The notes under the pieces were generated by a model that saw nothing but the letters and a program-made list of their open reading frames with translations, was not told the DNA's origin and ran no database searches. This document shows, in pieces, positions 9,686 to 28,099 of a stretch of 64,000 nt of DNA. Position 1 is the stretch's first letter, and the number at the start of each line of letters is the position of its first letter. The translations under genes were made by a program, and so were the position numbers. Source of the stretch: Arthrobacter sp. efr-133-R2A-120 (GTDB lineage: Bacteria > Actinomycetota > Actinomycetes > Actinomycetales > Micrococcaceae); assembly GCF_030209835.1 (NCBI RefSeq), contig NZ_JARVRF010000064.1:1-64000 (forward strand), read 5' to 3'.

Positions 9686-9759
9686 TCCAACGCAAGGCAT
9701 TTAAACATGAACTAACAAATGTCGGCTAGGATTACGCTCATAACAAGCGAGGGGAAGAC

Positions 9760-10518: not shown

Positions 10519-10623
10519 AGCAGGCACAAGGCACTTCCCAAGCGGAAAGGGAATGGACAGCTCCCACCAGATGCTCGGTTCCGACATCGTTCGGCAAGCC
10601 CAAGAGGAGGCAGTTGCCGAGAC

Positions 10624-11643
10624 TCAGTGAGGGACTGGGGCGGGGAAGGTCACACGCTGATCCCTGTAAGACAGTGGATCCGTGGTCGGAACGACATGAT
10701 CACGGCAACTTATAGCCAGTTCAGATTCCTCCACTAGATCAAGCAGGTCGTCCCAGACGCCAGAGGGGATCCTCCACTGCGCAAGGTCCGTGACAAAATC
10801 GGCTTGCGACGGGGTGCTGGCGCCGACGATCGTTGAAGTAATCCGTGGATCAAGCGTCGAAAACTGCAGGGCAGCTGCCGCCAAGGGGATGCCATACGCC
10901 GCACAGATCAACCGCATCTTATCGCTGCGTTCCAGACGTGCCGGGCTCCTCTCCCAGTTCACGCCCTGGGTAGACCTTCCCGCCCCATCCGGAAGTAATC
11001 TGCCGGTGAATGGCGCGGCATTTACGAACGCCACCTCCCGGGAGGCGGCATTCTGGATCAGCGGCTCGGCCGCCCGGTCCAGCAGGCTATACGGAACGTG
11101 GCTGATCACCGCGTCGAACGCATCAGTTTGCAGGTACTTCAGTTGGAGATCTATCGGACCGCCCGCAATGCCAAGATGATTGATCAAGCCCTGATCCCGC
11201 AACCCAACGAGCGTTGCAAGAGGGCCGCTACGCGCCGTTCCTGATTCAAAGCTGAACTCTTCGGGATTACGCAGCAAGACGAGCGGGAGAAGATCGAGGC
11301 CAAGGCGCTGAAGGCTCTCTTCCACGGCGCGCACAATGCCGTCCCCCGAGAAGTCGAGCGCTAAGGCGGGTCCCACGCTACGGGTCAGGACAAATCCATC
11401 GGGCAAGCCGCCTGCTTCAGAGATGGCCCGCCCAATACACCGTTCTCCCTCGGCTCCTTGCCAGGATTCACCACTCGCATCGATGAAGTTGAAAGGTCCT
11501 TCCAACACCCTCCGGATGGTCTCCAAGGCGGTTTCGAAACCGGGCCCGCAATCGGGCTGTCTAGTGCACACATCCATCGTGCTGATGTCGATGCCCACTG
11601 ATGACGCCGACAGGCCCGCACGGCCAAGCATTCGTCTTCTCAT
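10624..11643 (-). CDS. Aldo/keto reductase-family protein with degenerate catalytic site
   Basis: A 339-residue protein of the family that includes bacterial L-fucose/D-threo-aldose dehydrogenases. The fold is intact (FNFIDAS, ESLQRLGLDLLPLVLL, GLINHLGIAGGP, STIVGASTPSQ), but the usual Asp-Tyr-Lys-His tetrad reads as Asp55, Trp61, Arg88 and Arg125. It may therefore bind a sugar or NADPH without normal reductase chemistry, or use altered chemistry. ATG at 11643 is chosen for its GAGG site; the longer frame to 11769 lacks support. It lies downstream of the ROK regulator in the same direction after a 189-base gap with no recognised element. Confidence 0.8.
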   Translation of the reverse strand: MRRRMLGRAGLSASSVGIDISTMDVCTRQPDCGPGFETALETIRRVLEGPFNFIDASGESWQGAEGERCIGRAISEAGGLPDGFVLTRSVGPALALDFSGDGIVRAVEESLQRLGLDLLPLVLLRNPEEFSFESGTARSGPLATLVGLRDQGLINHLGIAGGPIDLQLKYLQTDAFDAVISHVPYSLLDRAAEPLIQNAASREVAFVNAAPFTGRLLPDGAGRSTQGVNWERSPARLERSDKMRLICAAYGIPLAAAALQFSTLDPRITSTIVGASTPSQADFVTDLAQWRIPSGVWDDLLDLVEESELAISCRDHVVPTTDPLSYRDQRVTFPAPVPH

Positions 11644-11832: not shown

Positions 11833-13011
11833 TCAACCTCTCGCGGCTTGTACCCGCTCGTGAGTAAGCGCGTCGCCGCCGGGAAGGCTGACGAAGGCTT
11901 CCTCTTCTATGCCGAGATCCGCGTACACCCTGTGCAGTGCGGCGACCACGGCTCCGACAGCACCCGAGAAGTCGCCCAACTCGGCAGCAGCGAGCCGGGG
12001 AGACGCGCGGAGATTCTGCTCCAGAGCCGCCTGGTAGCGGTCAAGTGTCGACGCGAGGGAGTTCGCGATGCCGCCGCCGAGGACGATCGTCTGCGGATCG
12101 CATGAAACCGTTGTGGCAGTGAGAACGATCAGAAGAGCTTGATCGAAATGGGCGCGCAATGCCTTCAGCCCGGGGCCCGCATCGCTTGCGAAGAGCTGGC
12201 TAGGGGCGGCGAGATCGATGCCCGACTCGGCGGCACGGCGGATGATCCCGGCGCCGGTGACCATGTGCTCAAGGCGAGTCCCAAGGGGGCCGACGGGCAG
12301 CTGCCCGAATTCACCGATTAGTCCGTGGTCGCCCTGAAGGATTCGGCCATCGATCGCCAGGCCGGCACCGAGCCCGGAACCGATCGTGACCATTGCAGCG
12401 TTGGGCGCGGAACGTGCCGCGCCGAAATGCTGTTCACCGAGGAGCGCATAGTTGGCGTCGTTGTCGAAGCCGACTGGCCTGCCCATCGCATTCTCGACGT
12501 CGTCCAGGAACGTTGGCGCCTCGATCTGGGCCAAGTTGGGTGCGTTGGAAATTGTGCGCTTCTGCTGACTCACAGCCCCTGGCAGGCCAACGCAGAGGTG
12601 TTCGACCCGATCCCAGACGTCTCCGGCCGATGTGCGCGCCGTGGAGGCCAACCAGTTTGCAAGCTCGCGCGCAGTCGTCGCAGTGGGCGTCGCGATCTCG
12701 AGGGCAAGGAGCGGACGAGCAAGCAGGTCGGCGACGACGAGACGGACGTTGGACGCTCCGAGGTCCACGCCGACGACGAAACTGCGATTGGACACCACGT
12801 CTAGCTCGACGGCCCGACGTCCGCGAGATTCGGAGATGATCTCGGCAGTCTCGGTGACGATTCCTTCAGCGATCAGCTGGTCGACAGCACGGGTGACTGT
12901 CGCCGCGGAGATGCCTGATGCTTCGGCAATCCATTTGCGGCTGGCAGGTCGCGACATCATTAGGGCCGTCAAGACCGCCTTGCGGTTCAGCTCTCTAGTG
13001 TCTTGAACCAT
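11833..13011 (-). CDS. ROK-family transcriptional repressor
   Basis: A 392-residue NagC/XylR-type regulator. An N-terminal winged helix (ASRKWIAEASGISAATVTRAVDQL, residues 22-45) precedes a ROK sugar-kinase-like domain with GVDLGASNVR and a C-terminal IVLGGGIA stretch. The zinc-binding cysteine cluster found in many ROK proteins is not apparent: the region GEFGQLPVGPLGTRLEHMV has no cysteines. ATG at 13011 is preferred over an in-frame TTG at 13029, because AAGGAG lies ideally upstream of the ATG and inside the longer frame. It faces the long plus-strand operon starting at 13463 and is its likely regulator. Confidence 0.87.
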   Translation of the reverse strand: MVQDTRELNRKAVLTALMMSRPASRKWIAEASGISAATVTRAVDQLIAEGIVTETAEIISESRGRRAVELDVVSNRSFVVGVDLGASNVRLVVADLLARPLLALEIATPTATTARELANWLASTARTSAGDVWDRVEHLCVGLPGAVSQQKRTISNAPNLAQIEAPTFLDDVENAMGRPVGFDNDANYALLGEQHFGAARSAPNAAMVTIGSGLGAGLAIDGRILQGDHGLIGEFGQLPVGPLGTRLEHMVTGAGIIRRAAESGIDLAAPSQLFASDAGPGLKALRAHFDQALLIVLTATTVSCDPQTIVLGGGIANSLASTLDRYQAALEQNLRASPRLAAAELGDFSGAVGAVVAALHRVYADLGIEEEAFVSLPGGDALTHERVQAARG

Positions 13012-13307
13012 CGGGGTCTCCTTTTGCAATCAGTGTGAATTCAAAGTTAGCCTAAATCGCCGTGGCGATCCAGCCATCTCGGGGATCGATTTACTGGCCG
13101 GTTCATTTGCGATAACACGCGCCGGGCGGGATGCTCCAGCGGAGGCGGCTGCGCGGTTGGCCTTGTCCCGCGTGACTGAAAATCACCCGCAGCCCTGATT
13201 TTACGGGGCCCAAACGGTCGGGCGATGACGCCGCTCAGACCTCTCGGCAAGAGTCGCGAACGGGGCGAAAGTGCAGGGCGGAGGATGCCCCGCATCTTCG
13301 TCTGCAA

Positions 13308-13462: not shown

Positions 13463-14587
13463 ATGAGCACAGCACCCACGGTCCGACGGTTCGGCCTTCG
13501 TGCCGCCGTCGGCGCACTTGCGATCACGCTCGCCCTCGCTGGCTGCTCCAGCGGAGGCGGCGGCACGGCCGCTTCATCCGGGCCCGCAGCCAAGCCCAGC
13601 CTGGAGTTCGCAGGTCCGAACGGCGAAAAGCCCGGTGCGCTCTCGGAGCTTTCGCTGACGAGTAGCGAGCAGGCGAAGGTGAAGGACGGCAAGTACACCG
13701 CCGCTTTCGTCTGGCACACGTCCTCGGACTTCGTGACCGCCGTCGAGAAGGGCGCGCGTGAGGAGTTCAAGAACCTCGGGATCGACGTCGTCGCGAGCAC
13801 GCAGGCCAACTTCAACGCCGCTACCCAGGCCAACAACGTTCAGACAGTCCTCGCGCTGCACCCGAACATCATCGTTACCATCGCGGTCGACCCCACTTCC
13901 GCCGCCGAGGCGTTCAAGCCCGCCGTCGACGCGGGAACGAAGCTCGTCATTATGACGACGCCCCCCGCCGGATACCAGGCCGGCAAGGACTTTGTGTCCA
14001 TCGTGACGGAGAACCTGACCGAGGCAGGGCAAGCCAACGCCGAGATCTTGGGAGACGCCCTCGGCAAGACCGGCGAGGTGGGCTATATCTCGTACAACGC
14101 CAACTTCTGGTTCACGAACCAGAGGGACAAGTCGTTCAAGGATTGGCTGGCCTACGAATACCCCGACATGAAAATCGTTGACTCCGAAGGCTTCGCCGAT
14201 GAGACGGCCACCCAGACGATCGCGGCCGCCATGATCGCGAAGAACCCGAACATCAAGGGCATCTACGTGTCCTGGGCGACGGCTGCGCAGGGCGTCGTGG
14301 CCGCGATCAAGGCGGCCGGGCGGAGCGACATCCAGGTGGTCACGAACGACCTGGACACCACCCTCGCGGCCTCGATGGCCTCTGGAACGAACGTGGCCGG
14401 AATGGTCGGAAACGGATCCCTCGGAATCGGCAAGGGTCTCGCCTTGGCGGGAGCATACGGCGTCCTCGGCAAGACCGCGCCGGCGCTGGTCGCCTCGGAC
14501 CCGACCAAGGTCACCAAGGCAGACCTCGACAAGGGATGGCTGTCCGACTATGGCACCCAGCCGCCGTCGAGCATCACCGGCGGCTGA
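13463..14587 (+). CDS. Sugar-type ABC transporter substrate-binding lipoprotein
   Basis: A 374-residue exported binding protein. A signal peptide ends in the lipobox LALAGC (cysteine near residue 28) and is followed by a Gly/Ser linker and a type I periplasmic-binding fold of the ribose class, with VVTNDLDTTLAASMASG in the C-terminal lobe. The ATG follows GGAAGG. It opens the long operon; its permease (16652) and ATPase (18864) are separated from it and from each other by enzyme genes, an unusual order for a CUT2 importer. The substrate cannot be read from the sequence. Confidence 0.87.
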   Translation: MSTAPTVRRFGLRAAVGALAITLALAGCSSGGGGTAASSGPAAKPSLEFAGPNGEKPGALSELSLTSSEQAKVKDGKYTAAFVWHTSSDFVTAVEKGAREEFKNLGIDVVASTQANFNAATQANNVQTVLALHPNIIVTIAVDPTSAAEAFKPAVDAGTKLVIMTTPPAGYQAGKDFVSIVTENLTEAGQANAEILGDALGKTGEVGYISYNANFWFTNQRDKSFKDWLAYEYPDMKIVDSEGFADETATQTIAAAMIAKNPNIKGIYVSWATAAQGVVAAIKAAGRSDIQVVTNDLDTTLAASMASGTNVAGMVGNGSLGIGKGLALAGAYGVLGKTAPALVASDPTKVTKADLDKGWLSDYGTQPPSSITGG

Positions 14588-14676
14588 CCTCGGACCGAAC
14601 GGGGCGGACGGTCTCGCCCACCGCTCGCCCCGCTCGCCACGCACCCCAAACACCAAGCACCACGAAGGAGACATCG

Positions 14677-15687
14677 ATGTCAGGGCAAGTCACAACCGTT
14701 CTCGGTGCGGTTCCGGCCGATGACCTCGGCAGGGTCATGCCACACGAACACCTCCTCTCGCTGACTCCGGGACCCTGGCTCACTGGCGGGCTGCGGGACG
14801 ACGCCGTCGATAGGGCGGTGGAGGCTCTCGGGTCGCTCCGAGAGCTCGGATTCGGGACCGTCGTCGACCTCAGCCCTTACGGTGTCGTCGGTCGTGACGA
14901 CAATGGAGACAACGCTGCACTGCTCGCCGAGATCTCGCGCAAGACGGGCATGCACATCGTCTCCGGAACTGCGTTCTACCTCGAGTCCTACTCTCCCGAG
15001 TGGGTGCACGACGCCGACGCCGGCGTCCTCGCCGAGCGCCTGATCCGGGATGTGGTCCACGGCATTGGCGACTCGGGCATCCATGCAGGCATCTTCGGCG
15101 AACAGGCGACAAGCCTGGGCGAGATCACCGCGTACGAGGAGAAGTGCCTCCGCGCCGTCGCCCGCGCTCAACGCGAGACCGGACTCTCGATCATGACCCA
15201 CACCACCCACGGCACGATGGCGTTCGAGCAGCTCGAGATCCTTAACTCCGAAGGCGTTGACCTGGACCGAGTGGTCATCGGCCACCTTGACACCCAGCTG
15301 AGCCCCGAATTCGCACGCCGGGTCCTGGATGCCGGTCCCCGCATCGCCATCGACACGATCGGCAAGGAGAACTGGGATTTCTTCCTTGGTCCGGCCCCCG
15401 ACCCCCGCCCGGATGGCGAGTTCGACAAGCACGCCTTCCACCGGTCCGACGCCGGACGCGCCGACCTTGTCGCGTGGCTGGTGTCGCTCGGATACACCGA
15501 CCGCATCCTGCTCTCCCAAGACCTCACCGGAGCCGAAGTCTGGATGAATCCGAAAACCCACGGGATCCACGGCTACTCCTACCTCGGCGCCGTCTTCGTT
15601 CCCGAGCTCCGCGCACGCGGGGTCTCGGACATGGACTGCGAACGGCTCCTCACTGCCAACCCCGCCAGCGTGCTGGAGGTGCGGTGA
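14677..15687 (+). CDS. Phosphotriesterase-family metal-dependent hydrolase
   Basis: A 336-residue amidohydrolase-superfamily protein related to phosphotriesterase and to the E. coli phosphotriesterase homology protein Php. Metal ligands can be followed: H23-x-H25 in MPHEH, Glu142 in GIFGEQAT at the bridging position (where true phosphotriesterases carry a carboxylated lysine), H175 in MTHTTHGT, H203 in IGHLD and the late Asp in LLSQDLTG. The bridging Glu places it with Php-like members rather than paraoxonases. ATG at 14677 is chosen for its GAAGGAG site; the frame open from 14536 overlaps the previous gene. Family relatives are lactonases or esterases; the substrate here is unknown. Confidence 0.87.
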   Translation: MSGQVTTVLGAVPADDLGRVMPHEHLLSLTPGPWLTGGLRDDAVDRAVEALGSLRELGFGTVVDLSPYGVVGRDDNGDNAALLAEISRKTGMHIVSGTAFYLESYSPEWVHDADAGVLAERLIRDVVHGIGDSGIHAGIFGEQATSLGEITAYEEKCLRAVARAQRETGLSIMTHTTHGTMAFEQLEILNSEGVDLDRVVIGHLDTQLSPEFARRVLDAGPRIAIDTIGKENWDFFLGPAPDPRPDGEFDKHAFHRSDAGRADLVAWLVSLGYTDRILLSQDLTGAEVWMNPKTHGIHGYSYLGAVFVPELRARGVSDMDCERLLTANPASVLEVR

Positions 15688-16655
15688 ACGTTCTCCAGCA
15701 CTCCTCCGTTCCGGTTTCGCGGTTCGTCGTCGGTGTCGACCTTGGCGGAACCAAGGTGCGTGCCGGCATCGCCGGACTCGACGGTCGGGTGCTGTTCCAG
15801 ATGACCGAACCCACCGCTCCGGACGCTGGGCCCGATCTCGTTCCACAGTTGTCCGCACTGGTGGCCGCACTGGCCTCGGCTGTCGGGTCCGATGTATCGG
15901 CAGTCGTCGCCACGGCGATCGGAGGAGCGGGCGTTCCCGACGGCGACTCGGGCCGATTCGAGCGCGCGCCGAATCTCGGCGAGCTCGACGGATTCAGCCT
16001 GGCAGCCGACTTGGAGGAGGCGCTGGGGCATCCGGTGGTGCTGGAGAACGATGTCAACATCGCCGCCCTCGGCGAACTGCATGACGGCGTCGGCTTCGCG
16101 TACGACAGCTTCGCGTTCGTATCGGTCGGCACCGGCATCGGCGTCGGTCTCATCCTCGACCGTCGGCTGTGGGCCGGAGCGAGCGGCGGTGCCGGGGAGA
16201 TCGGATACCTGCCGTTCGGGGCCGACCCGATCAACCCCGCCAGCCACCGTCGCGGTCCGCTCGAAGAGGTGGTCGCGGGCGACGCCATCGGCCGTCGCTA
16301 CTCGGCGTCCTCCGACTCAGCCGCCCCCGAAGCCACTCCCGATGCCGTCGAGGTCTTCGACCGGGCCGGGCGCGGGGACCCCTTTGCGGCCGCCTCGCTC
16401 GACGAGGAGGCGAAGTGGATCGCCCATGCCCTCGTCGCGGTCGACGCCGTCGTGAACCCGGGACTCTTCGTCCTCGGCGGGGGAATCGGCACCCGCGTCG
16501 AACTCCTTGCGCCCATCCGTGCGTGGATGACGCGCCTCGGCCGGGGCGACCTCAAGGTCGTCATCAGCCGGCTCGGCCCCCGCGCCCCCATCGCCGGCGC
16601 CGTGCGCCTGGCCATCGACAAGGCCCTCCAGCCACAGGAAAGAGAAGCATCATGA
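15684..16655 (+). CDS. ROK-family sugar kinase
   Basis: A 323-residue kinase-type ROK protein with no DNA-binding domain. The ATP phosphate-binding motif FVVGVDLGGTKVRAG opens the protein, VLENDVNIAALGE contains the catalytic Asp, and GTGIGVGLIL and VLGGGIG follow. The cysteine cluster for structural zinc is missing, as in the regulator at 11833. The start is GTG at 15684 with GGAGGT upstream and a GTGA overlap with the hydrolase stop. It probably phosphorylates the imported sugar or amino sugar before the SIS-domain enzyme acts. Confidence 0.86.
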   Translation: MNVLQHSSVPVSRFVVGVDLGGTKVRAGIAGLDGRVLFQMTEPTAPDAGPDLVPQLSALVAALASAVGSDVSAVVATAIGGAGVPDGDSGRFERAPNLGELDGFSLAADLEEALGHPVVLENDVNIAALGELHDGVGFAYDSFAFVSVGTGIGVGLILDRRLWAGASGGAGEIGYLPFGADPINPASHRRGPLEEVVAGDAIGRRYSASSDSAAPEATPDAVEVFDRAGRGDPFAAASLDEEAKWIAHALVAVDAVVNPGLFVLGGGIGTRVELLAPIRAWMTRLGRGDLKVVISRLGPRAPIAGAVRLAIDKALQPQEREAS

Positions 16656-17632
16656 CCATCACGACCCACGTCAAGACAGGGACGGTCAGCGACGTCCTCC
16701 GGGACATCGATTGGCGGCAGTATGTCGTCTACATCGGCTTCGTAGTCGTCTTCGCCTACTTCGCCATCACCCAGGCCGGCAACTTCCTCAACACCACGAC
16801 CCTGGTCAACATCATCACCCAGGCCGCCCCCATCACAGTGATGGCGGTCGGGGCGGTGTTCGTCTTGAGCGTTGGTGAAATCGACCTCTCCATTGGTTCC
16901 ACCGTCGCACTCGCGTCCCTTGGGTCGGCCGTGACGCTGCAGGCGACCCACCAATGGTGGTTGGCCGCGTTGGCCGGACTCGCCATCGGCGCTGGGGTCG
17001 GCGCGATCAACGGGATCTTTATCACTATGGTGCGTCTGCCATCCTTCCTGGTCACTCTGGCCACGATGGGCCTGGTGGCCGGACTTGCCCAGCAGGCGAC
17101 CAACCTGCAATCGGTTCCGGTCACGAACAGCGCCTTCGGTTGGCTGTTCGGCGGCGGGACGCTTCTCGGGATCCCCATTCTGATCTGGTGGACAGCCGTG
17201 ATCGTCGCAATCGGCTGGCACGTGCTCCGTCAGCGCTCGTTCGGCGCACACGTGCTCGCAGTGGGCAACAAATCGTCGGCGGCTGCGGTAAGCGGCATCC
17301 GAGTGAATCGCGTGAAAATGATTGTCTTCATCGTGAGCGGCATGGCGGCGGCCCTGGCCGGCATCCTCTACGCGGGTCGTCTTGCCGGCGCGACGTATAC
17401 GCTGGGCAGCTCCGACCTGATGAGCGTGCTCGCCGCGGTCATTGTCGGTGGCACCTCCCTCACCGGAGGCAAGGGCTCCATCATCGGAGCACTTGTCGGC
17501 AGCCTGTTCATGAGCATGATCAACTACGGTCTGCTCCTGGGCGGCCTCAACGTGGCACAGCAGTTAATCGTGCGCGGCATCATCATCCTCGCCGCCGTCT
17601 CCCTCTCGCTCCGCGCCAAGAAGAACAGTTAG
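16652..17632 (+). CDS. Sugar-type ABC transporter permease
   Basis: A 326-residue CUT2-family permease. Predicted transmembrane helices begin at YVVYIGFVVVFAYFAI. The class motif VGEIDLSIGSTVALASL and the later VGGTSLTGGKGSIIG coupling loop are visible. ATG at 16652 overlaps the kinase stop (ATGA). Only one permease gene is present, so the channel is presumably a homodimer. The open frame extends upstream to 16169 but that part is a shadow of the kinase gene. Confidence 0.88.
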   Translation: MTITTHVKTGTVSDVLRDIDWRQYVVYIGFVVVFAYFAITQAGNFLNTTTLVNIITQAAPITVMAVGAVFVLSVGEIDLSIGSTVALASLGSAVTLQATHQWWLAALAGLAIGAGVGAINGIFITMVRLPSFLVTLATMGLVAGLAQQATNLQSVPVTNSAFGWLFGGGTLLGIPILIWWTAVIVAIGWHVLRQRSFGAHVLAVGNKSSAAAVSGIRVNRVKMIVFIVSGMAAALAGILYAGRLAGATYTLGSSDLMSVLAAVIVGGTSLTGGKGSIIGALVGSLFMSMINYGLLLGGLNVAQQLIVRGIIILAAVSLSLRAKKNS

Positions 17633-17640
17633 GCCCACCG

Positions 17641-18867
17641 ATGTTCTTAGACCTCCTTCGCCGCCGCAACCCGGCGCTCCTGCAAGCGGCCGCCCGGTTC
17701 CACCAGAACGGTCAGATCCCGGCCAACACCTATGTGATCGACCTCGACGCAGTGACCCGAAACGCGGCAGCCATCTCGGCCGAAGCCAGCCGACTCTCCC
17801 TGACCCCGTTCGCTATGACGAAACAGATCGGGCGCAACCCGGACGCCTCCCGGGCAATCGCCGCCGGCGGCATCGACAAGGCGGTCGGGGTGGACCTCGA
17901 GTGCGCGATCGCCGCTGCGACCGGCGGCCTCCGGACCGGTCATCTGGGGCACCTCGTCCAGATTCCCAAGCATCGCGCCGCCGAGGCGGCCGCACTCGAA
18001 CCGCTCTACTGGACGGTTTTCTCGGAAACGAAGGCGGCTGAGGCCGGCGCGGCCGCCCTGGCGCACGGCCGGGTCCAAGACGTCCTGTTGCGTATCCAGG
18101 CCCCGGGCGATCGGTTCTATCGCGGACACGAGGGCGGGTTCGACGCCACAGACGTCGTGGGCGCTGCCGACCGGATCGACGCCATTGGGGGCGTTCGGTT
18201 CGCCGGCATCACCACTTTCCCCGCAACGCTCTTTGACGCCACAACGGGTGCCGCACGTTCCACTCCGAACCTCGCCACGCTCACCACGGCGTTGCGGGCA
18301 CTGGAACGAGCGGGCCGCCGGGATGTGCAGGTGAACGCACCAGGAACGACCTCCGTTTCCATCCTGGCAACGCTCGCCGAAGCCGGGGCCACCCAGGTGG
18401 AACCGGGCCACGGCCTAACGGGCACCACTCCGACCCACGCGGTGCAGGATCTCGTGGAGGAACCCGCCATCGCCTATGTCTCCGAGGTCTCCCACCTCTG
18501 GAACGGCGACGCCTACGTCTTCGGCGGTGGCCTCTACATCGACCCGGTGCTCGGCGGCTCGACGACCACAGCGCTCCTTGTGGCGCCGGATACCAACGCG
18601 GTCACCGCGCCTGAGCTGCGGGTGGACATGCCGGCAGCCGACGCGATCGACTATTACGCCACCGTTCCTCTCGGCGACCACCGCGCACAACCAGGCGACA
18701 CCGTGCTGTTCGGGTTCCGCCCCCAAGTGTTCGTCACCCGCGCCCTCACCGCCGGCATTGCGGGCCTATCCACCGGAACGCCGACGGTCGCCGGTATCTG
18801 GTCTTCCGACGGCTCAGCACCCCTCACCATCTCCGACACACTCGCTGCACCCAGGAGGACAGCATGA
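17641..18867 (+). CDS. YhfX-family PLP-dependent protein (alanine-racemase fold)
   Basis: A 408-residue protein strongly resembling E. coli YhfX over its whole length, including the openings MFLDLLRRRNPALLQAA and VIDLDAVTRNA, the PLP lysine in FAMTKQIGRNP (Lys61), GHLVQIPKH, VEPGHGLTGTTP and the C-terminal GFRPQVFVTRA. The family has an alanine-racemase-like N-terminal barrel and a C-terminal beta domain, and probably handles an amino acid or amino sugar. In E. coli yhfX also lies near a phosphotriesterase homologue, and that pairing recurs here. ATG at 17641 lies 8 bases after the permease stop. The reaction is unknown. Confidence 0.87.
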   Translation: MFLDLLRRRNPALLQAAARFHQNGQIPANTYVIDLDAVTRNAAAISAEASRLSLTPFAMTKQIGRNPDASRAIAAGGIDKAVGVDLECAIAAATGGLRTGHLGHLVQIPKHRAAEAAALEPLYWTVFSETKAAEAGAAALAHGRVQDVLLRIQAPGDRFYRGHEGGFDATDVVGAADRIDAIGGVRFAGITTFPATLFDATTGAARSTPNLATLTTALRALERAGRRDVQVNAPGTTSVSILATLAEAGATQVEPGHGLTGTTPTHAVQDLVEEPAIAYVSEVSHLWNGDAYVFGGGLYIDPVLGGSTTTALLVAPDTNAVTAPELRVDMPAADAIDYYATVPLGDHRAQPGDTVLFGFRPQVFVTRALTAGIAGLSTGTPTVAGIWSSDGSAPLTISDTLAAPRRTA

Positions 18868-19643
18868 TCATCGCAGACCCCACATCCACGCCGAAACCCA
18901 ACGACGGAACGGTCAAGCCGCTACGGCTCGACGGCATCAGCAAGCACTTCGGCGGCATCGTCGCCATCAAGCGGTTCGACCTCGAGATCGAGCCAGGCGA
19001 GATCGTCGCCCTTGTCGGCGACAACGGCGCCGGCAAATCGACGCTCGTCAAGATCATCTCCGGCCTCTACCAGCCCACCGACGGGGAGATCTGGTTGAAC
19101 GGGGAACGCACCATCTTTCGCGACGCCTCCGATGCGCGCACGAAGGGCGTCGAGGTCGTCTACCAGGATCTCGCACTCGTCGACCTCCAGCCGGTGTACA
19201 TGAACCTGTTCCTCGGCCGCGAACTGCGCAAGCCGCCGTTCGGCACGCTCGATCGCAAGGGGATGGCAACGCGCACGCAGGCGCTCGTCGACGAGCTGGA
19301 TGTGCGCATCCCCTCTGCGAAATCGACGCTCAGCGACCTTTCGGGCGGCCAACGACAGGGTATAGCCATCGCTCGCGCCACCCATTGGGCCAGCAGCCTT
19401 GTGCTCATGGATGAACCGACGGCGGCCTTGGGGGTGGCCGAGACCGCGAAGGTCGAGGAGACCATCCTCAAACTCAAGGAGCGCGGCGCCGCCGTACTCG
19501 TCGTCAGCCACAACATGGAGCAGGTCTTCCGCATCGCCGACCGGGTTACCGTCCTCCGACGTGGGACACAGGTGGGAACCCGGCGCGTCGCCGACACGTC
19601 CCACAATGAGCTGATCTCGATGATCACGGGGCTCGCCTCGTGA
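18864..19643 (+). CDS. Sugar-type ABC transporter ATPase, single domain
   Basis: A 259-residue ATPase with one nucleotide-binding domain: Walker A GDNGAGKST near residue 51, signature LSGGQRQG, Walker B LVLMDEPTAAL and the switch histidine in VVSHNMEQV. It resembles the short FrcA-type ATPases rather than the duplicated RhaT type, so it should act as a homodimer with the permease at 16652. The start overlaps the YhfX-family stop by 4 bases. Confidence 0.9.
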   Translation: MIIADPTSTPKPNDGTVKPLRLDGISKHFGGIVAIKRFDLEIEPGEIVALVGDNGAGKSTLVKIISGLYQPTDGEIWLNGERTIFRDASDARTKGVEVVYQDLALVDLQPVYMNLFLGRELRKPPFGTLDRKGMATRTQALVDELDVRIPSAKSTLSDLSGGQRQGIAIARATHWASSLVLMDEPTAALGVAETAKVEETILKLKERGAAVLVVSHNMEQVFRIADRVTVLRRGTQVGTRRVADTSHNELISMITGLAS

Positions 19644-20695
19644 GCGCGGCGATCATCGACGGGCCCGGGGCACTAATGCGGGCGGAAATCGCCGAGCAGC
19701 CCAGCCGCTGGATCGACCTGCTTGATGACCAGCGGGCCGCCATCGACGCCGCCGCCGACCTGATCCGTGAAACCCAACCAGAATTGCTCGTCTTCGTGGC
19801 ACGAGGGTCAAGCGACCATGCCGCGATGTACGGCCAATACCTCGTCCACAACCTTCTTCACATCCCGGCCATGCTGGCGACCCCGGCAACGGTGACCGCG
19901 TTCGACACGAGCCTCCGCTACCCCTCGACTGTCGCCATCGCCGTATCCCAATCGGGCCAGTCCCCGGACCTCCTCGCGACCGCCGAATCCATTGCCGAAG
20001 CGGGCGTGCCCATCGTCGCGATCACCAACGATTCCCGGAGCGCCCTCGCCGCACTCGGGCGCGTTCATATTCCGCTCGCGGCAGGGCCGGAACTCTCGGT
20101 TGCCGCGACCAAGACATACACCGCGGAGCTCTTGGCCATCGCACTCGTGGTGTTCCGCGTCGCCGGCCTCGATTGGGACGACATCGGAACTCGCGTCCGT
20201 GCGACAGCGGAGGAGGCGATCGCAGTCCTCGGTCAGCCGCTCGACGAGCTGGTCGATGCGTTCGAGGGCCGCGAACGCATCCTCATCGTCGGCCGAGGCT
20301 ACGGGATGGCCACCGCGAAGGAGGGTGCCCTCAAGCTCATGGAGACGAATGCGATCGCAGCCTCGGGCTGGAGCGCCGCCGATGCGACCCACGGCCCGCT
20401 CGGGCAAGTCGTGCCTGGTGCGGGCATCATCGCGTTGACGCGCGGCGACGCAGGCCGCGACTCCGTCATCTCCTTCGCCGAAGCGGCCACCCGGCTTGGC
20501 GGGCTCGTCGCTGAGCTGGGTGGCCGGACAATCGCGGCCGCCCAGGTCCAGATGCCGAGCGCCACGGTGTCGACCGAACTGTCGCCGCTCGTCGACATTC
20601 TCCCGCTGCAGAGACTGGCCCTGGAACTGGCACTACGCCGCGGACTCGACCCAGACAGTCCAGTCGGTCTCGCCAAAGTCACCAAGACCCACTAA
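19640..20695 (+). CDS. Double SIS-domain sugar-phosphate isomerase/deaminase
   Basis: A 351-residue protein of the GlmS-isomerase/AgaS/NagB-II type with two SIS domains. The first contains VFVARGSSDHAAMYGQY and VAVSQSGQSPDL, followed by ELSVAATKTYTAEL. The second contains ILIVGRGYGMATAKEGALK and the histidine motif ADATHGPLGQV. The glutamine amidotransferase domain of GlmS is absent. Such proteins deaminate or isomerise amino-sugar phosphates or cleave related adducts such as fructoselysine phosphate. The GTG at 19640 overlaps the ATPase stop. With the ROK kinase upstream, a phosphorylated amino-sugar-like intermediate is a reasonable guess. Confidence 0.86.
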   Translation: MSAAIIDGPGALMRAEIAEQPSRWIDLLDDQRAAIDAAADLIRETQPELLVFVARGSSDHAAMYGQYLVHNLLHIPAMLATPATVTAFDTSLRYPSTVAIAVSQSGQSPDLLATAESIAEAGVPIVAITNDSRSALAALGRVHIPLAAGPELSVAATKTYTAELLAIALVVFRVAGLDWDDIGTRVRATAEEAIAVLGQPLDELVDAFEGRERILIVGRGYGMATAKEGALKLMETNAIAASGWSAADATHGPLGQVVPGAGIIALTRGDAGRDSVISFAEAATRLGGLVAELGGRTIAAAQVQMPSATVSTELSPLVDILPLQRLALELALRRGLDPDSPVGLAKVTKTH

Positions 20696-20745
20696 CGGTT
20701 CCGGGATGACGGCCGCGATGTCCAGGGAAGGCAGGAAGCTGAACA

Positions 20746-22065
20746 ATGAGAGTAGGACTGCGGCTGCAGGGAACCAGCTGCCGGACCGTTGTGCTGAACG
20801 GGCGGACTGTAGTTTCAGCCATTCGGGAGGTGCACGCGGGCAGTTTGTCGGAAGCCTTGGAATTGTCCATGTCAGGGCTCCGTCGGGAGTTCGGGCCAGG
20901 CATCACGGAGATCACTGCCGACGTCGGACGGGTCTTGGTGGAGCGGAAACTGGCCGACGTTGTCGCCATCCGCATTTCGCCCCGTCCGCCCGCGGACGCC
21001 TTCCACATGACCGTGCCGCCACCCCTTGTTGAGCCTGCAGTGACCCGGACCGTGCATGTCCGCGGGGGTCACGACCTGCGGGGACGGCCTCTGGCCCGGT
21101 TGGACCTGGAGGCGTTCCTGGCCGATCTCCCCGGCATCCTTGCCGGTGACGCACGGAACGTGGCGATCACTTCCGTCGGTTCGACCGCGTCAAGGAACCA
21201 TGAAACGCGTATAGCCGATGCCATCCTAAGCAACGATAGAGATATGCGGATCAGTATTTCCAGTGATTTCTATTCCAGTGTTTTCCGGGACCGCGACTAC
21301 ACGGCCATCCTAAACAGCGCCCTGATGGAGACGGGGGAAGAGCTGGCTGCAATGCTTACAGAGGCAGGCCGGCGGCAGTTCCCGGCCACCCACTTGTCGT
21401 TTGCAAAGAACGACGGCGGCCGCGCGCCTCTGTCACGGTTGGCGTTGGCTCCTGTGCACGGGTTGCACGCCGAGCCCGCGATGGCAATCCTTGGCGCGGC
21501 CACACTGGCGGGAATCCCCAACGGGGAAGTCATTCTCTGCATGGAGGCTGGGGCCACCGTGGGCCACACCCGCGGAGGGCTGCCTGTCTCCAGAAGCCTC
21601 ATTCGCCAAGGATTCGACGCAAGCCTCGCCAGCAACGCCGCCATTCTCGAGCCGTACACCATCCACCACCCGGTTCGCCCCGACATCCCGTCCGTGATTG
21701 CCGACCTCCGCGAGCGGCCGGAGAGTGCGCTGCCCTTCGGGCTGGTGCCCACTCTGCCAGCGGTGCAGGACGCCGCACTGGTAGGGTCTGCAGCGGCGCC
21801 GCTGACTGCGTGGATCGACAGACTCGAGACCGTCAGCGGCCGGGTTGACCTGGAACGCGTACAGAACCTCGCCGAAGAGGACGCCCACTCAGCGGCGGTC
21901 CAGTTAGGCGCCAGCCCCGGGCAAACCCGCATCCTTGAATCGAACGTCTACGCCATGCCCTACGGTAATCCCGGAATCGTTAGTATCCGGGTCCAAGCGG
22001 CAGGAGAAACGTCCGCCGACGAGGAACACGTGCTGCCCGCTGCCGTGCGGGGAACCAACCCATGA
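20746..22065 (+). CDS. HyuA-like (hydantoinase/oxoprolinase N-terminal family) protein, apparently inactivated
   Basis: A 439-residue protein, shorter than usual HyuA relatives. It retains family landmarks (YTAILNSALME near residue 185, FAKNDGG near 220, ASNAAILEPYTIHHPVRPD later). Both phosphate-binding motifs are broken: the expected N-terminal DxGGTxTD reads LQGTSCRT (residues 7-14), and the second DxGGTTTD-type motif reads CMEAGATVG (265-273). This suggests a non-ATP-hydrolysing structural partner, probably of the DUF917 protein that overlaps its stop. It starts 50 bases after the SIS gene, so it may be on the same transcript. Confidence 0.72.
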   Translation: MRVGLRLQGTSCRTVVLNGRTVVSAIREVHAGSLSEALELSMSGLRREFGPGITEITADVGRVLVERKLADVVAIRISPRPPADAFHMTVPPPLVEPAVTRTVHVRGGHDLRGRPLARLDLEAFLADLPGILAGDARNVAITSVGSTASRNHETRIADAILSNDRDMRISISSDFYSSVFRDRDYTAILNSALMETGEELAAMLTEAGRRQFPATHLSFAKNDGGRAPLSRLALAPVHGLHAEPAMAILGAATLAGIPNGEVILCMEAGATVGHTRGGLPVSRSLIRQGFDASLASNAAILEPYTIHHPVRPDIPSVIADLRERPESALPFGLVPTLPAVQDAALVGSAAAPLTAWIDRLETVSGRVDLERVQNLAEEDAHSAAVQLGASPGQTRILESNVYAMPYGNPGIVSIRVQAAGETSADEEHVLPAAVRGTNP

Positions 22066-23144
22066 GCACCATACTCACTACCGAGGACATCCGTAACCTC
22101 CGCACCGGGGCCCACTTCCTGACCTGCACCATCGACCCGACGGCCATCTACATCTACGCCGAGATGATTCAACGAGCGATGGAGGACCGGTCGTTGGAGC
22201 TCATCACCGTCGATGAGCTTGCTCCCGACGATCTGGTGGTGGCGGTCGGAATGGTAACGCAAGGCCTTTTCATCGCCGACATGCCTCCCGTGGGCGATGA
22301 GTTCCTTGGCTGCATCCGTGCCATCGAGGCGAGTCTCGGCCGGTCGGTGCGGGCGATCTATTCGCTCGCCGCCGCCAACATCAACGGAATCGTCCCCCTT
22401 ATGGTTGGGCTGCAGTCCTCGCTGCCTGTCATCGATTCCGACCCCATGGGCCGTGTTTTCCCCTTGATCAGCCAGACAACTCTGAACATTGGAAACGTGG
22501 CAATCGGCCCTATCGCGCTCATGGGGGTAACCGGGGAACGGGCGGTTGTTGAGGTCGAAAGCCCGCAGCGGGCCGAAACGCTGGTGCGTGCACTGGTGAC
22601 CGAACTCGGCGGCTGGGCAGCCACAGCCATGTATCCGTGTTCCGCGCAACAGCTGAAGGAGCATGGCGTCCATGGCTCCATCAGCCGGATGATCCGGATC
22701 GGGCAAATCCTTGACGCGAGCACATCGGTTGAGAGAAAGCTGTTGTTGCTCGCCGATCTCCTCGGCGCGACGCGCATCGCCCGGGCCCGCGTGAGCCACA
22801 TCGAAAGCCTCTCCCGGCCCAGCGACCTCGGCCTGCCGGCGCAGCCGTCCAGCGTAACGCTCGAAGACGAAACCACCGGACGCATCGTCCGTCTTGAAAT
22901 CCAGAATGAGATCCTGCTGGTCCTCGTGGATGGTGCGGTGACAGCAGCCGTCCCGGACATGGTGACGCTACTCAATTCCGAGCACGGCACGGTGGTCAAC
23001 ATCGACGACGTCCAGGTGGGCGACGTCATCGACATAATGAAGATCACGGCAGCGGCGCAGTGGTACACGGAGGCGGGGTTGGATCTCACCGAGCCAAAGG
23101 CCTTCGGCATTCCGATCGTGCACCCAAGGCGGAGACATGCGTAG
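22062..23144 (+). CDS. DUF917-family protein
   Basis: A 360-residue DUF917 protein, recognisable from the N-terminal region with MPPVGDEFLGCIRAIE, the AAANINGIVPLMVGLQSSLPVIDSDPMGRVFP segment, and a C-terminal beta-rich part. DUF917 proteins are usually encoded beside HyuA-like proteins and are thought to take part in hydantoin- or lactam-type catabolism; their reaction is not established. The ATG overlaps the HyuA-like stop by 4 bases and the PucR gene starts 8 bases before its stop, so all three are translationally coupled. Confidence 0.82.
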   Translation: MSTILTTEDIRNLRTGAHFLTCTIDPTAIYIYAEMIQRAMEDRSLELITVDELAPDDLVVAVGMVTQGLFIADMPPVGDEFLGCIRAIEASLGRSVRAIYSLAAANINGIVPLMVGLQSSLPVIDSDPMGRVFPLISQTTLNIGNVAIGPIALMGVTGERAVVEVESPQRAETLVRALVTELGGWAATAMYPCSAQQLKEHGVHGSISRMIRIGQILDASTSVERKLLLLADLLGATRIARARVSHIESLSRPSDLGLPAQPSSVTLEDETTGRIVRLEIQNEILLVLVDGAVTAAVPDMVTLLNSEHGTVVNIDDVQVGDVIDIMKITAAAQWYTEAGLDLTEPKAFGIPIVHPRRRHA

Positions 23145-24639
23145 ATCGAAAAATGAAACCCGCCTCGATGTCGCCGGGCTATTGGCGCACGGTTCCCTCC
23201 GTGGCACCACTCCGCTATATCTCACTCCATCCAGCGGGCTGATAGAAAGTGTTGTTCTCGTCTCCCAGCTTGAAGCAATCCGGCAGGTGCGGCCCAATAC
23301 CGTGGTGGTCCTCACCTCAGAGATGGGATCAGGGGGTTGGCTTGTGTCAGCGGCGCTGCGACACGCCTGGGAGCGGCGGGCCAGCGCCGTCGTCGTAGCC
23401 GGCAGCGCCTATGCAAGCGCGGCGGTCGGACTGGCAGAGCGGTTGGGCATCACGCTGCTGGCCACTGATGGGGAACCTGCAGCGCTCGCCTTGGCGCTGG
23501 CGGCCGAGATCGGAGCGGCCCTGTCAGTGGTCGATGCGGAACTGGCCAGGGTTGCTCGGACAGTCGCAAAGGACACCACACTCGGTGATGTCCTCAAGAC
23601 CATTTCCAGGGAACTGGACGGATCCGGAGTTTCGCTGGAACACGACGGCGTTGTTCTGGCCTCCGCCGGAATGCCTCCACGGGAGACTGACGAAGTCATC
23701 ACCGTGGAAGTCGGCGAGGCCAATAGTGCCGTCCGCTTCACCCTCACGGCCCGCGTGCCCACTTCCGGCGTCCACAACCTGCGGCTGGTCCGCTCAATCC
23801 TTGAAGTAGCCACCCCCTCTGTGAAGGCTGCCTGGCTGTTGGAGGACCTACTCAGCACTGCCCGGGCCGTTCCCACAGCAGCTATCGCCGGGTTGGATCA
23901 GGACCCTGCCGCGTCAGGCGCGGAGTTCGAGGAAAAGCACCGACATCTGCTGAAGCAGTTGGGCTGGCGCGAAGGGGAGCCGTACGTGGCCGTGTGGTTC
24001 CGCAGCGGGCAGGTGCAAGACCATCGGCCCGAGCTGACGGCCGTGTTGCGCCTGCTCTGGCGCAAGGTCACAGTACGCAGCCCCTTGGCGGAGGTTCAAG
24101 GCGGTTGGCTGACGCTCGTACCGGCCGGGGAGGAGGACGCCTCCACCCAGCTCGAAACCCGGATCAGGACACGTCTGGGGCCGGCTCTTGCCGAGCTTGG
24201 CCTGGTGGCGGGACTGTCCCGATGGCAGGAGGATGTCCCAGCGCTGGCGTTGATCGTGCGTGAGGCGCGGCTGTCCGCTGAATCCGCCCGGTCAACGGGA
24301 CCCGGCACGGTTCTAGGCTTCGCCAGCCTCGGGGTGGTCGCGGCCACGACCTTCGTCGACATGGCCGCCGTCGCGCTCGTGGCAGAACTATCACTGCCGC
24401 GGCTGATGACCTCCCCTGACCGCGACGTAATCATTACCGCAGTGGCCGTCTTCCTCGATCACCGCGGCTCGGTCAGCCTCGCTGCGAAAACCCTCAACCT
24501 GCACCGGAACACCCTGCAGGCCCGGCTTAACCGGGCGAGGGAACTCGGTGTCCCGCTTGATATTCCCTCTGAGCTGCTGTCCGTCCACCTCATCGCCAAA
24601 GTGCTGCAGCGCGCGTCTTCATCCGTCAGCAGTACGTGA
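23137..24639 (+). CDS. PucR-family transcriptional regulator
   Basis: A 500-residue regulator with the PucR architecture: an N-terminal purine-catabolism-regulator-like domain (about residues 10-135, including VVVLTSEMGSGGWLVSAAL), a central sensor/GGDEF-like region, and a C-terminal helix-turn-helix (HRGSVSLAAKTLNLHRNTLQARL, about 446-468). ATG at 23137 overlaps the DUF917 stop by 8 bases. It closes the operon and probably activates it, or the divergent hydantoinase locus, in response to a nitrogenous ligand. Confidence 0.83.
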   Translation: MRRSKNETRLDVAGLLAHGSLRGTTPLYLTPSSGLIESVVLVSQLEAIRQVRPNTVVVLTSEMGSGGWLVSAALRHAWERRASAVVVAGSAYASAAVGLAERLGITLLATDGEPAALALALAAEIGAALSVVDAELARVARTVAKDTTLGDVLKTISRELDGSGVSLEHDGVVLASAGMPPRETDEVITVEVGEANSAVRFTLTARVPTSGVHNLRLVRSILEVATPSVKAAWLLEDLLSTARAVPTAAIAGLDQDPAASGAEFEEKHRHLLKQLGWREGEPYVAVWFRSGQVQDHRPELTAVLRLLWRKVTVRSPLAEVQGGWLTLVPAGEEDASTQLETRIRTRLGPALAELGLVAGLSRWQEDVPALALIVREARLSAESARSTGPGTVLGFASLGVVAATTFVDMAAVALVAELSLPRLMTSPDRDVIITAVAVFLDHRGSVSLAAKTLNLHRNTLQARLNRARELGVPLDIPSELLSVHLIAKVLQRASSSVSST

Positions 24640-24669
24640 CGGCGCGGTCCATGCCTGAGCTCGACCCCG

Positions 24670-24703
24670 GTCCGTGTCCGCGGACTGTTCCACGGACACG
24701 GAC
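24670..24703. terminator. Long hairpin between convergent genes
   Basis: A 15-bp stem with one mismatch (left arm 24670-24684, right arm 24689-24703) and a CTGT loop lies in the 97-base gap between the PucR gene and the convergent reductase gene. No T-tract follows on either side. Its symmetry would let it serve both transcription directions. Confidence 0.5.
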
Positions 24704-24720
24704 ACGGACACGGACACGGA
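24694..24720. repeat. GGACAC hexamer tandem repeat, 4.5 copies
   Basis: Four perfect GGACAC units and a partial fifth begin inside the right arm of the hairpin at 24670-24703. Each unit can pair with the left arm, so several alternative hairpins are possible. Confidence 0.85.
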
Positions 24721-24736
24721 GCCAGGCGCGTCCGGG

Positions 24737-25735
24737 CTAACTTATTTCGACGACAATCTTCCCTGACTGTTCGTTTGACTCCATGTAGCGGTAGGCATCA
24801 AGCACTTGGTCGAAAGCAAAGACCCGGTCGACTCTGGGCCGCAGGGCCCCGGAGCTAATCCGCTCGAGGATGAAGTCGACACCTCGCCGCCGCTCATCGG
24901 CCCGTCCGACGTGGTTGAACATTGAGTACGGGTGGAAAACCGATTGAGTCCTGCACATTGCGGCCATAGGGACGACGGGCTGCAAATCGCTCAGCGTTCC
25001 GTAGCCGAAGATGACGGCGTTGGGTGCGAGGTGATCGACGTAGGTGCCGAGGGACTCTCCTCCGACAGGATCGAAAGCGACCCGCACGCCTTTGCCATCG
25101 GTGGTGCGGTCGATGACTTCGCCCAGGTCGTCGACTCCTACGAGGGCCACTTCGTTTGCGCCGGCCTCGAGGAGGAGCGATCGCTTCTTCTCCGACCGTG
25201 TCGTCGCGACCACCTTCGCCCCAAGTGCGCGTGCGATCTCGATGGCGCCAAACCCGGCTGAACTGGCGGCGGCCGTCACGAGCACTGTGTCTTCGGATCC
25301 GAGGTTGGCTACTTCTGCGAAAGCGAAGTAAGAAGTGAGATATTGCATCCACACAGAGCAGGCTTGGGCGTCCGAAAGTTCCGGTGGAGCAAGGGTTAGG
25401 TAGTCTGCCGGGAGGACGGCTGTTGTTGCCTGCACGCCGTCGGTTGTGGTGAAGAATGGAATGCTCGTAACGCGGTCGCCGATGCTGAAGGCGGTGACGT
25501 TCGCGCCGATCTCGGTGACGGTGCCAACTGCCTCGGAACCAATGCGCGAGGGGAACACCGGGATGGTGTAGTGCTCTCCGTGGATGAACATTAGATCTGC
25601 CCGGTTGAGTGCGAATGCTGCGACGTTGATCCGGACATCGTTTTCGGCGACTGGACGTGGAGAAGCAGCTTCGACGGCCAGCACATCGGGGCCGCCTAAT
25701 TTGCGGAAGACAACCGCGGATTCCGGCCTGTTCAC
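24737..25735 (-). CDS. Zinc-independent alcohol dehydrogenase/quinone oxidoreductase-family protein
   Basis: A 332-residue medium-chain reductase of the quinone-oxidoreductase class. The N-terminal GroES-like domain includes FALNRADLMFIHGEHY and RIGSEAVGTV; the Rossmann domain carries VTAAASSAGFGAIEIARALGAKVV. Zinc-ligand cysteines are absent. GTG at 25735 is chosen because it overlaps the racemase stop (GTGA) and the aligned sequence starts there. As the last gene of the MFS-racemase-reductase operon it probably reduces an enone or carbonyl intermediate; the substrate is unknown. Confidence 0.8.
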   Translation of the reverse strand: MNRPESAVVFRKLGGPDVLAVEAASPRPVAENDVRINVAAFALNRADLMFIHGEHYTIPVFPSRIGSEAVGTVTEIGANVTAFSIGDRVTSIPFFTTTDGVQATTAVLPADYLTLAPPELSDAQACSVWMQYLTSYFAFAEVANLGSEDTVLVTAAASSAGFGAIEIARALGAKVVATTRSEKKRSLLLEAGANEVALVGVDDLGEVIDRTTDGKGVRVAFDPVGGESLGTYVDHLAPNAVIFGYGTLSDLQPVVPMAAMCRTQSVFHPYSMFNHVGRADERRRGVDFILERISSGALRPRVDRVFAFDQVLDAYRYMESNEQSGKIVVEIS

Positions 25736-26556
25736 GAGGACACCGTGGTCATTGACACCATGTGCTTTGGCTCGAGGGCCGGGAAGAACCGCTGGCGTTC
25801 TTGGGCCGTGGGCCCGTCGTAGCCCAGGCGCTTGCTGTGCGTCCAACCGAACCGACGAACCGAGTCGACGAGCTGCTCGGCGTGTTTGAGCGGGGCCACA
25901 GTCGCGTCGATCACGGGTACGCCGATTTCCTCTTGAACCGTTCGGAAGAATCCGAATTCGGCCGTGCAGCCGAGGATAACGACGTCGGCGCCGTCCTGCT
26001 CCACGGCTTTGCGGGCTTCGGTCATGATCCGCTGTTCCGTGAGTGCCGGGTCCTCCTGGAAGTCATCGACGCCCATCTCAAGCACGCGCCATGAGGCAAG
26101 ACGGTCTGACGCGCCGCAACGATGGACGTTCTCGGCCATCTCGGGAATCCACTTTTTCCTTCCCACGAGGATGGAGAATCGCTCGCCTAGACTTCCGGCG
26201 ATGCTCAGCGCCGAGTGGGCCGGGCCCACAACCACCATGCGATCGGTGATTTCGCGTGCCGCCCGCAGCGCGGGGTCGTAAAAACAGCCGACGACGGCGG
26301 CGTCATAGCCTTCTTCTTCCGCCCACCGCACTGTTCGCAACAGCTGTGGAAGCATAAGTGCCTCGAAAGCGTTGTATTCAACGTGGGAGGGGCCCTCTCC
26401 GTCAAGGGAAACGACATCAACTTCGGTGCCGGGACGGACTATCTGGCGGAAGGAATCCGCCATCGCTCGGTTGTACGCATCGGTGTAGAGCGGGTTGATC
26501 CACAGGATTCGGGCGTTCTCCGAGAGATCGTGGAGATTGTCGGTGGGGGTGATCAT
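25732..26556 (-). CDS. Asp/Glu/hydantoin racemase-family protein
   Basis: A 274-residue protein with the paired catalytic cysteines of cofactor-independent racemases: VVGCFYDP near residue 91 and ILGCTAEFG near residue 198. The N-terminal RILWINPLYTDAYNRAMADS is typical of the hydantoin-racemase branch. It lies between an MFS transporter (4-base overlap) and a reductase, divergent from hyuA/hyuB, which supports racemisation of a hydantoin-like or amino-acid substrate before ring opening. An aspartate racemase-like or maleate isomerase-like activity is the main alternative. Confidence 0.83.
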   Translation of the reverse strand: MITPTDNLHDLSENARILWINPLYTDAYNRAMADSFRQIVRPGTEVDVVSLDGEGPSHVEYNAFEALMLPQLLRTVRWAEEEGYDAAVVGCFYDPALRAAREITDRMVVVGPAHSALSIAGSLGERFSILVGRKKWIPEMAENVHRCGASDRLASWRVLEMGVDDFQEDPALTEQRIMTEARKAVEQDGADVVILGCTAEFGFFRTVQEEIGVPVIDATVAPLKHAEQLVDSVRRFGWTHSKRLGYDGPTAQERQRFFPALEPKHMVSMTTVSS

Positions 26557-27905: not shown

Positions 27906-28085
27906 GTCTTGACCTCCGATATTTTGGACAGGATAAGAAGTACACGCAGTGTTTCTGGGCACGGAGAACAGTCCGGATATTAGGGAATTCACCTCGGAGC
28001 AGCTCACCAAAGCCTCCACTCGGGGTAGCTCTTCCTGGCCTCCCGCCGAGTGATTGCACTCACACTACAAGCGGGGAGTGCTCAG

Positions 28086-28099
28086 AAAGTGTTCACTTT
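28086..28099. promoter_or_regulatory. Palindrome in the MFS-hyuA divergent region
   Basis: AAAGTG-TT-CACTTT is a perfect two-arm palindrome followed by a T-rich run, about 180 bases from the MFS start and 290 bases from hyuA. It is the most symmetrical element in the 484-base intergenic region 27906-28389, in which I recognise no gene. Its regulator is unknown; the PucR protein encoded at 23137-24639 is one candidate. Confidence 0.35.

Follow-up and report, generated by a model that had tools for sequence, protein, structure and literature searches.

The yhf operon of Escherichia coli contains the genes php and yhfX. Structures of both proteins have been solved, and to our knowledge neither has an assigned function. 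The frl (fructosamine) and fra (fructose-asparagine) routes consist of import, a kinase and a SIS enzyme, and the Nag pathway with NagB-II comprises sugar uptake, ROK proteins and, as its last enzyme, a SIS/NagB protein of the glucosamine-6-phosphate deaminase type. According to PMC11374699, mammalian PTER, a member of the phosphotriesterase (PTE) family, hydrolyses N-acetyltaurine and has a modelled glutamate (E169) among its metal ligands; hydrolysis of N-acetyl-beta-alanine is described in PMC13311154.

Here we analyzed a window of 64,000 nucleotides (positions 1 to 64,000 of contig NZ_JARVRF010000064.1; "the window" denotes this whole stretch) from Arthrobacter sp. efr-133-R2A-120, whose genome comprises 5.12 Mb and in which the window lies on the contig numbered C4 by us. 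It contains a seven-gene cassette that resembles each of these systems in part. Like the yhf operon it has a PTE gene near a YhfX gene, but it differs by a ribose-type ABC importer, a ROK protein and a SIS protein, and its YhfX proteins form a separate branch. The cassette shares with the Nag pathway sugar uptake, ROK proteins and the proposed type of the last enzyme, but has no NagA and instead a PTE or M20 hydrolase together with YhfX; nagA is found elsewhere in most of 44 genomes. With the frl and fra routes it has import, a putative kinase and a SIS enzyme in common, but its SIS protein resembles NagB-II and not the deglycase model. With PTER it shares the PTE family and a glutamate among the metal ligands (E142 here). 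The reading that we favor, and to which we give an even chance, is an operon devoted to the salvage of an N-acylated hexosamine, with an aminoacyl group as the most likely substituent.

Layout and spread of the cassette

The genes between 13463 and 20695 lie on one strand in the order binding protein, PTE, ROK, permease, YhfX, ATPase and SIS, and match the Pfam families Peripla_BP_4, PTE, ROK, BPD_transp_2, Ala_racemase_N plus YhfX-like_C, ABC_tran and SIS, respectively. The original prediction, made from the letters of the window, had described seven tightly linked genes with mostly 4-base overlaps. This was borne out: the junctions measure, in order, +89, -4, -4, +8, -4 and -4 bases, four of six thus being 4-base overlaps, and the seven genes are a single operon-like unit.

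Relatives were fetched with the YhfX protein of the window, and the best 80 of 101 loci were used together with at most 10 kb of flanking sequence; the conservation figures are therefore conditional on YhfX. Families were called near YhfX at a profile score above 120 and within 6.5 kb, and loci in which YhfX has all three importer genes (binding protein, permease, ATPase) close by were classed as ABC-type (n = 78 over L024-L122). These 78 include near relatives, and 14 of them lie near a contig end and have incomplete flanks. Loci without the full importer set, for instance L046 (PTE-ROK-YhfX), fall outside the class, and L121 is a duplicate of L047 (identical YhfX rows).

The cassette was found in Actinomycetota, in Alphaproteobacteria and in one Chloroflexi metagenome-assembled genome (MAG); the YhfX protein of L024, from another Arthrobacter sp., is 98% identical to that of the window. 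Since 77 of the 78 ABC-type loci keep the order permease-YhfX-ATPase (L041 is the exception), the separation of binding protein, permease and ATPase by enzyme genes, which had been noted for the window, is real and conserved; it is a stable feature of the cassette and no peculiarity of one genome. A search for conserved neighbourhoods elsewhere had been suggested as a check, and the set indeed recurs across three phyla. Literature searches, which covered open-licence papers, returned no description of the operon; a gene table for Lactobacillus rhamnosus in PMC7513527 includes one protein of the YhfX family and one related to phosphotriesterases. We conclude that a real and conserved gene set is at issue, for which the open-licence literature searched apparently has no description.

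Two variations were observed. A second, diverged YhfX gene stands beside the operon in L033, L041 and L044, the second copies forming one clade (100/100), and the cassettes of L076, L087 and L120 contain an amino-acid permease gene between the ATPase and PTE genes (checked by Pfam in L120).

The pairing of PTE and YhfX in yhf-type operons, which had been pointed out for E. coli, was also confirmed. A class sample of 394 genomes has a YhfX match in 20, and in all 20 PTE lies within about 5 kb of YhfX. Five of these carry the ABC cassette, 13 a yhf-type operon (L106-L118) and two (L104, L105) YhfS-, YhfU- and YhfW-like genes. YhfS-, YhfT- and YhfU-like genes are present in 13/13 of the yhf-type loci and a YhfW-like gene in 11/13; Pfam identifies YhfT, DUF2620 (YhfU) and YhfS in L107. 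Partners of this kind, sought by phmmer with L107 and L104 proteins, were found in L104-L118; no YhfS, YhfT, YhfU or YhfW was found in L024-L103 or L119-L123, nor among the ten window products scanned.

With respect to the ligand, the nearest solved proteins to the binding protein are generic sugar binders (at most 56.6 bits). Searched on its own with an E-value limit of 1e-30, the binding protein matches 12 of the 394 class genomes, of which five have the YhfX cassette. In the 7 others the match is a more distant relative (31-38% identity) in a different setting, as is a second copy in G022, and no YhfX gene was seen among the called products of operons around the 36-38% relatives. Given the generic sugar binders and the Pfam content of one relative's operon (L152, below), a sugar-like ligand is likely. 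W84, H85, D143, R221, D222, W271 and D296 are identical in at least 93% of 112 binding-protein rows from PTE and M20 loci, and their presence in both types suggests one ligand class.

The operons of the 36-38% relatives (L148-L153), all actinobacterial and in two cases from genomes of 1.4-1.5 Mb, contain an ATPase of 502-539 amino acids, oxidoreductase-like and isomerase-like genes and mostly a ROK repressor. Pfam assigns two products of L152 to Gfo/Idh/MocA and two others to xylose-isomerase-like proteins, which has the look of a keto-sugar route. Two further loci (L154, L155 in G366 and G264, labelled by the look of the sequences) have a distant binding-protein relative beside a YhfT-like transporter, a gene resembling 2-keto-3-deoxy-6-phosphogluconate aldolase and a short-chain dehydrogenase/reductase; both genomes also have yhf-like YhfX loci (L105 and L104, respectively).

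The hydrolase and proposed deaminase positions

The window hydrolase matches PF02126 at 184.6 bits, and its model (mean pLDDT 86.0) has a fold match at Z 39.4, with a root-mean-square deviation (rmsd) of 2.4 over 306 aligned residues. H23, H25, E142, H175, H203 and D282, which we take to be the metal ligands, are invariant in 29 ABC-type PTE rows (window included). The protein thus belongs to the PTE family, with its TIM barrel and His/His/bridging residue/His/His/Asp ligand set, and the bridging Glu142 that had been read from the window was confirmed, as was Lys61 of YhfX. Compared with solved structures, it scores 134 bits with Php and 104.5 bits with the phosphotriesterase-related protein 9efa. 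Amide activity is that of PTER, and for the cassette PTE it would be a putative function; 9efa scores below Php.

The hydrolase in the 78 ABC-type loci is PTE in 27 and M20 in 50; none has both, and one (L070, Chloroflexi) has neither. Two M20 proteins that were scanned match an ArgE/DapE deacylase model best (140 and 171 bits, under the cut-off of 217.6). In the YhfX tree (103 rows) the two actinobacterial M20 loci, L033 and L044, group together (100/86) within a larger set (100/98). Wherever a hydrolase is visible in the rest of this set it is PTE, and the same holds for the branches that follow outward (L040; L039/L043/L049). PTE and M20 have therefore been exchanged in place, L033/L044 nesting within PTE-bearing actinobacterial loci. 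M20 enzymes of the ArgE/DapE group hydrolyse amides and PTER has amide activity, so that amide hydrolysis would be the best reaction common to both families.

A different view of the PTE makes it a (phospho)sugar lactonase in an operon that handles an amino-sugar acid, for example glucosaminate, with YhfX as dehydratase or aldolase. Lactonases are indeed among the nearest folds of the PTE model, and after YhfX itself D-threonine aldolase is closest in fold to the YhfX model. However, M20 is an unlikely substitute for a lactonase, and SIS and NagB require the phosphate of an aldose or ketose rather than an aldonate; we consider this view very doubtful. Ranking of folds as a means to separate amidase from lactonase was tried and set aside as uninformative, PTER and Php being absent among the 50 matches listed.

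Outside the window the same genome has two more PTE-family genes in tandem (L123, G000:C5:58001-78000, at 9092-11192); no YhfX match was found in the 20 kb taken there.

For the SIS protein of the window the best model is NagB-II (NF046059; 196 bits, cut-off 430), followed by GlmS models. It aligns with glucosamine-6-phosphate deaminase 8eol and with GFAT 2zj3 via Glu235, His251 and Lys346, which are kept in at least 95% of 37 rows; the catalytic roles of the GlmS residues behind this comparison are assumed. SIS is seen in 21 of the 27 loci with PTE and in 12 of the 50 with M20. A NagB-family gene is found where SIS would be in three Rhodobacterales loci (L069, L084, L089), and those of L069 and L084, which were scanned, are both above the NagB cut-off. 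The one of L089, from a MAG, is spread over two open frames at about 11980-12900, possibly owing to a sequencing error.

Neither SIS nor NagB was seen in 6 PTE and 35 M20 loci, 6 of these 41 having short flanks. In all 22 searched genomes of deaminase-less operons, NagB or a NagB-II-like protein is encoded at another place (NF046059 scores of 211-314 bits; for NagB 238 and 232 bits, cut-off 236.9), and in the 17 alphaproteobacterial genomes among them a NagB-II-like gene adjoins nagA; this is consistent with the salvage operon and not proof of it, because many genomes carry a deaminase anyway. NagA is above its cut-off in 37 of 44 genomes, among them that of the window (nagA on contig C11), and no NagA was found among the ten products scanned from 13463 to 24639; the operon would thus be parallel to the ordinary N-acetylglucosamine (GlcNAc) route in most hosts. 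Three genomes with operon and SIS gene (G397/L031, G401/L040 and G403/L047) have neither NagA nor NagB above cut-off, and there the operon SIS may be the sole such enzyme.

These counts bear on a plainer substrate, an amino sugar that is merely N-acetylated (such as GlcNAc or ManNAc), with PTE or M20 in place of NagA and YhfX unrelated or accessory. The end steps would equal those of the Nag pathway, and the three genomes just named fit it. We nevertheless hold it to be unlikely, because so many of the genomes have their own NagA, the 17 alphaproteobacterial genomes have retained a NagB-II-like gene of their own next to nagA, and it has no place for YhfX, which is in nearly every cassette (although the loci were fetched with YhfX).

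Glycated amino acids (Amadori or Heyns compounds) had been named among the test substrates in the original prediction; as a first choice they are not supported: the SIS protein of the window has no match to the fructoselysine-6-phosphate deglycase model NF008481 up to E 0.001, and two relatives match it weakly (18.7 and 30.5 bits, cut-off 430). In such an operon a ROK kinase and a SIS deglycase would act with a hydrolase that trims a peptide or amide, and YhfX would act on the amino acid. Such a scheme would be akin to frl and fra, has the logic of kinase, SIS enzyme and amide hydrolase, and would suit the amino-acid permease in three loci, but the resemblance of SIS to NagB-II, its exchange with NagB and the retention of Lys346 argue against it and make it improbable.

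YhfX and the proposed pathway

The lysine of YhfX (K63 when counted from 17635, K61 from the ATG at 17641) is invariant in 25 aligned rows. The protein matches the structure of E. coli YhfX (4kbx) at 241 bits by sequence, and its model (mean pLDDT 92.7) aligns with 4kbx at Z 52.0 (rmsd 2.0, 386 aligned). With both domains, the lysine for pyridoxal phosphate (PLP) and the YhfX fold, it is a member of the YhfX family. The next folds are D-threonine aldolase 7yqa (Z 27.9, rmsd 3.3, 346 aligned), beta-hydroxyaspartate aldolase 6qkb (Z 26.7, rmsd 3.3, 341 aligned), diaminopimelate decarboxylase 4xg1 (Z 26.3, rmsd 4.0, 346 aligned), D-serine dehydratase 3anu (Z 25.6, rmsd 3.6, 339 aligned) and alanine racemase 4lut (Z 24.7, rmsd 3.7, 332 aligned). 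Several of these are tied, so the ranking of the model does not settle the reaction; it leans away from alanine racemase. By eye, the metal ligands of D-threonine aldolase are absent from YhfX, an observation that was not used as evidence.

The stand-alone ROK protein has the D-x-GGT and ND motifs but not the zinc motif C-x-C-G-x-x-G-C. In alphaproteobacterial loci the ROK gene before M20 encodes an N-terminal helix-turn-helix in 45 of 47 (37 called by pattern expression and 8 by eye), and two have no ROK gene upstream. The kinase role of the "ROK kinase" in the original prediction is thus less secure.

In the proposed pathway the sugar-type ABC importer would take up an N-acylated hexosamine, as its family suggests, and the ROK protein would phosphorylate the sugar. 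PTE or M20 would then cleave the amide, to which the M20 exchange and the activity of PTER point. The SIS protein would convert hexosamine-6-phosphate to fructose-6-phosphate and ammonia, a predicted activity consistent with its residues and the exchange with NagB. YhfX may act on the freed amino acid by a PLP carbanion reaction, e.g., aldol cleavage, elimination, decarboxylation or racemisation. With PTE replaced in place by M20, and SIS by NagB, the evidence points to amide hydrolysis by PTE and an amino-sugar phosphate as end product; an amino acid as the acyl part is suggested by the presence of YhfX and, in three loci, of an amino-acid permease. The predicted import and degradation of a sugar-amine or sugar-amino acid conjugate is supported and sharpened by the NagB-II/GlmS-like SIS, NagB in 3 loci and M20 in 50 of 78. 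The idea that the compound is already phosphorylated when imported is not supported, importer and ROK protein suggesting phosphorylation after uptake.

Several points weigh against the salvage operon. The ROK protein without zinc motif matched 13 models and reached the curated cut-off of none, and no stand-alone kinase gene precedes M20 in the alphaproteobacterial loci, such a gene having been seen only outside them. Of the 50 M20 loci, 35 show no deaminase gene in the vicinity of YhfX (4 of the 35 being short-flanked), so that importer, hydrolase and YhfX make up the near-universal core. The NagB-II cut-off, of which the window SIS reaches 196 of 430 bits, is passed by 0 of 44 genomes, and the window genome has nagA and nagB elsewhere. 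The fold matches of the PTE model are phosphotriesterases and lactonases and do not favor an amidase. The binding proteins of PTE and M20 loci fall mostly into separate branches, and their ligands could therefore differ. Finally, the link of YhfX to the released acyl part is a proposal, and ligand and enzyme activities are predictions.

Proposed local control, neighbouring genes and possible biological meaning

Table 1. Features of the cassette and its upstream region (window coordinates).
Feature	Position	Strand	Comment
ROK-family repressor (helix-turn-helix, without D-x-GGT motif)	11833..13029	-	divergent from operon; conserved neighbour
Operator-like palindrome CTTTACTTGCGCACTGAAATCAAAA	13345..13369	+	in promoter-like region of operon
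Solute-binding protein, sugar-type (Peripla_BP_4)	13463..14587	+	lipoprotein-like
Phosphotriesterase-family hydrolase, Glu142	14677..15687	+	proposed N-acyl (amide) hydrolase; amidase role proposed
Stand-alone ROK protein	15684..16655	+	proposed sugar kinase with D-x-GGT and ND but no zinc motif
ABC permease, ribose/monosaccharide type	16652..17632	+	
YhfX-family fold-type III PLP enzyme, Lys61	17641..18867	+	
ABC ATPase, single-domain	18864..19643	+	
SIS-domain enzyme, NagB-II-like; E235, H251, K346	19640..20695	+	proposed glucosamine-6-phosphate deaminase

A palindrome, TTTGATT-N9-AATCAAA, lies between the divergent ROK repressor gene and the binding-protein gene; the copy of the window has 2 mismatches. 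When 28 divergent regions were examined, it was present with 0 or 1 substitution in 14 and with 2 in one, and was not seen in 13. A regulon search with up to 3 mismatches returned exactly one match per genome in 14/14 genomes and 0 in the reversed control, and no match beyond the operon itself; since these 14 were chosen for showing the site, this shows its uniqueness and not how widespread it is. The simplest reading is that the divergent ROK repressor is a dedicated local regulator of a one-operon regulon, which it would control through predicted binding at this single operator-like site.

The range out to 24639 given in the original prediction was too long. The genes at 20746-24639 (HyuA-N-like, S-Me-THD/DUF917-like and PucR), the first of which starts 50 bp past the SIS stop codon, follow the cassette in one of 80 loci, the near-identical relative L024, within the flanks available. 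They were considered as part of the cassette and rejected because the linkage is not conserved, and are treated as neighbours. A consensus scan of 20695-20746 found no terminator-like or promoter-like site, so that read-through from SIS into 20746 is possible. The region 20746-30441 resembles a hydantoinase-like module, a separate catabolic cluster that adjoins the operon; after PucR, ADH-like, Asp/Glu-racemase-like and MFS-like genes and a HyuA-like gene at 28390 lie on the opposite strand (labels by eye).

In its fullest form the proposal is an undescribed N-aminoacyl hexosamine pathway, present in three phyla, whose amide hydrolase is a Php-type PTE interchangeable with M20 and in which YhfX degrades the amino acid; we put this forward tentatively, as possible and not as probable. 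If true, it would assign a first role to the orphan families Php and YhfX and point to the opening of an amide conjugate by the yhf operon of E. coli as well. It would be a bacterial counterpart to amide hydrolysis by PTER, and would provide a dedicated route to a carbon and nitrogen source in soil, plant-associated and marine bacteria.

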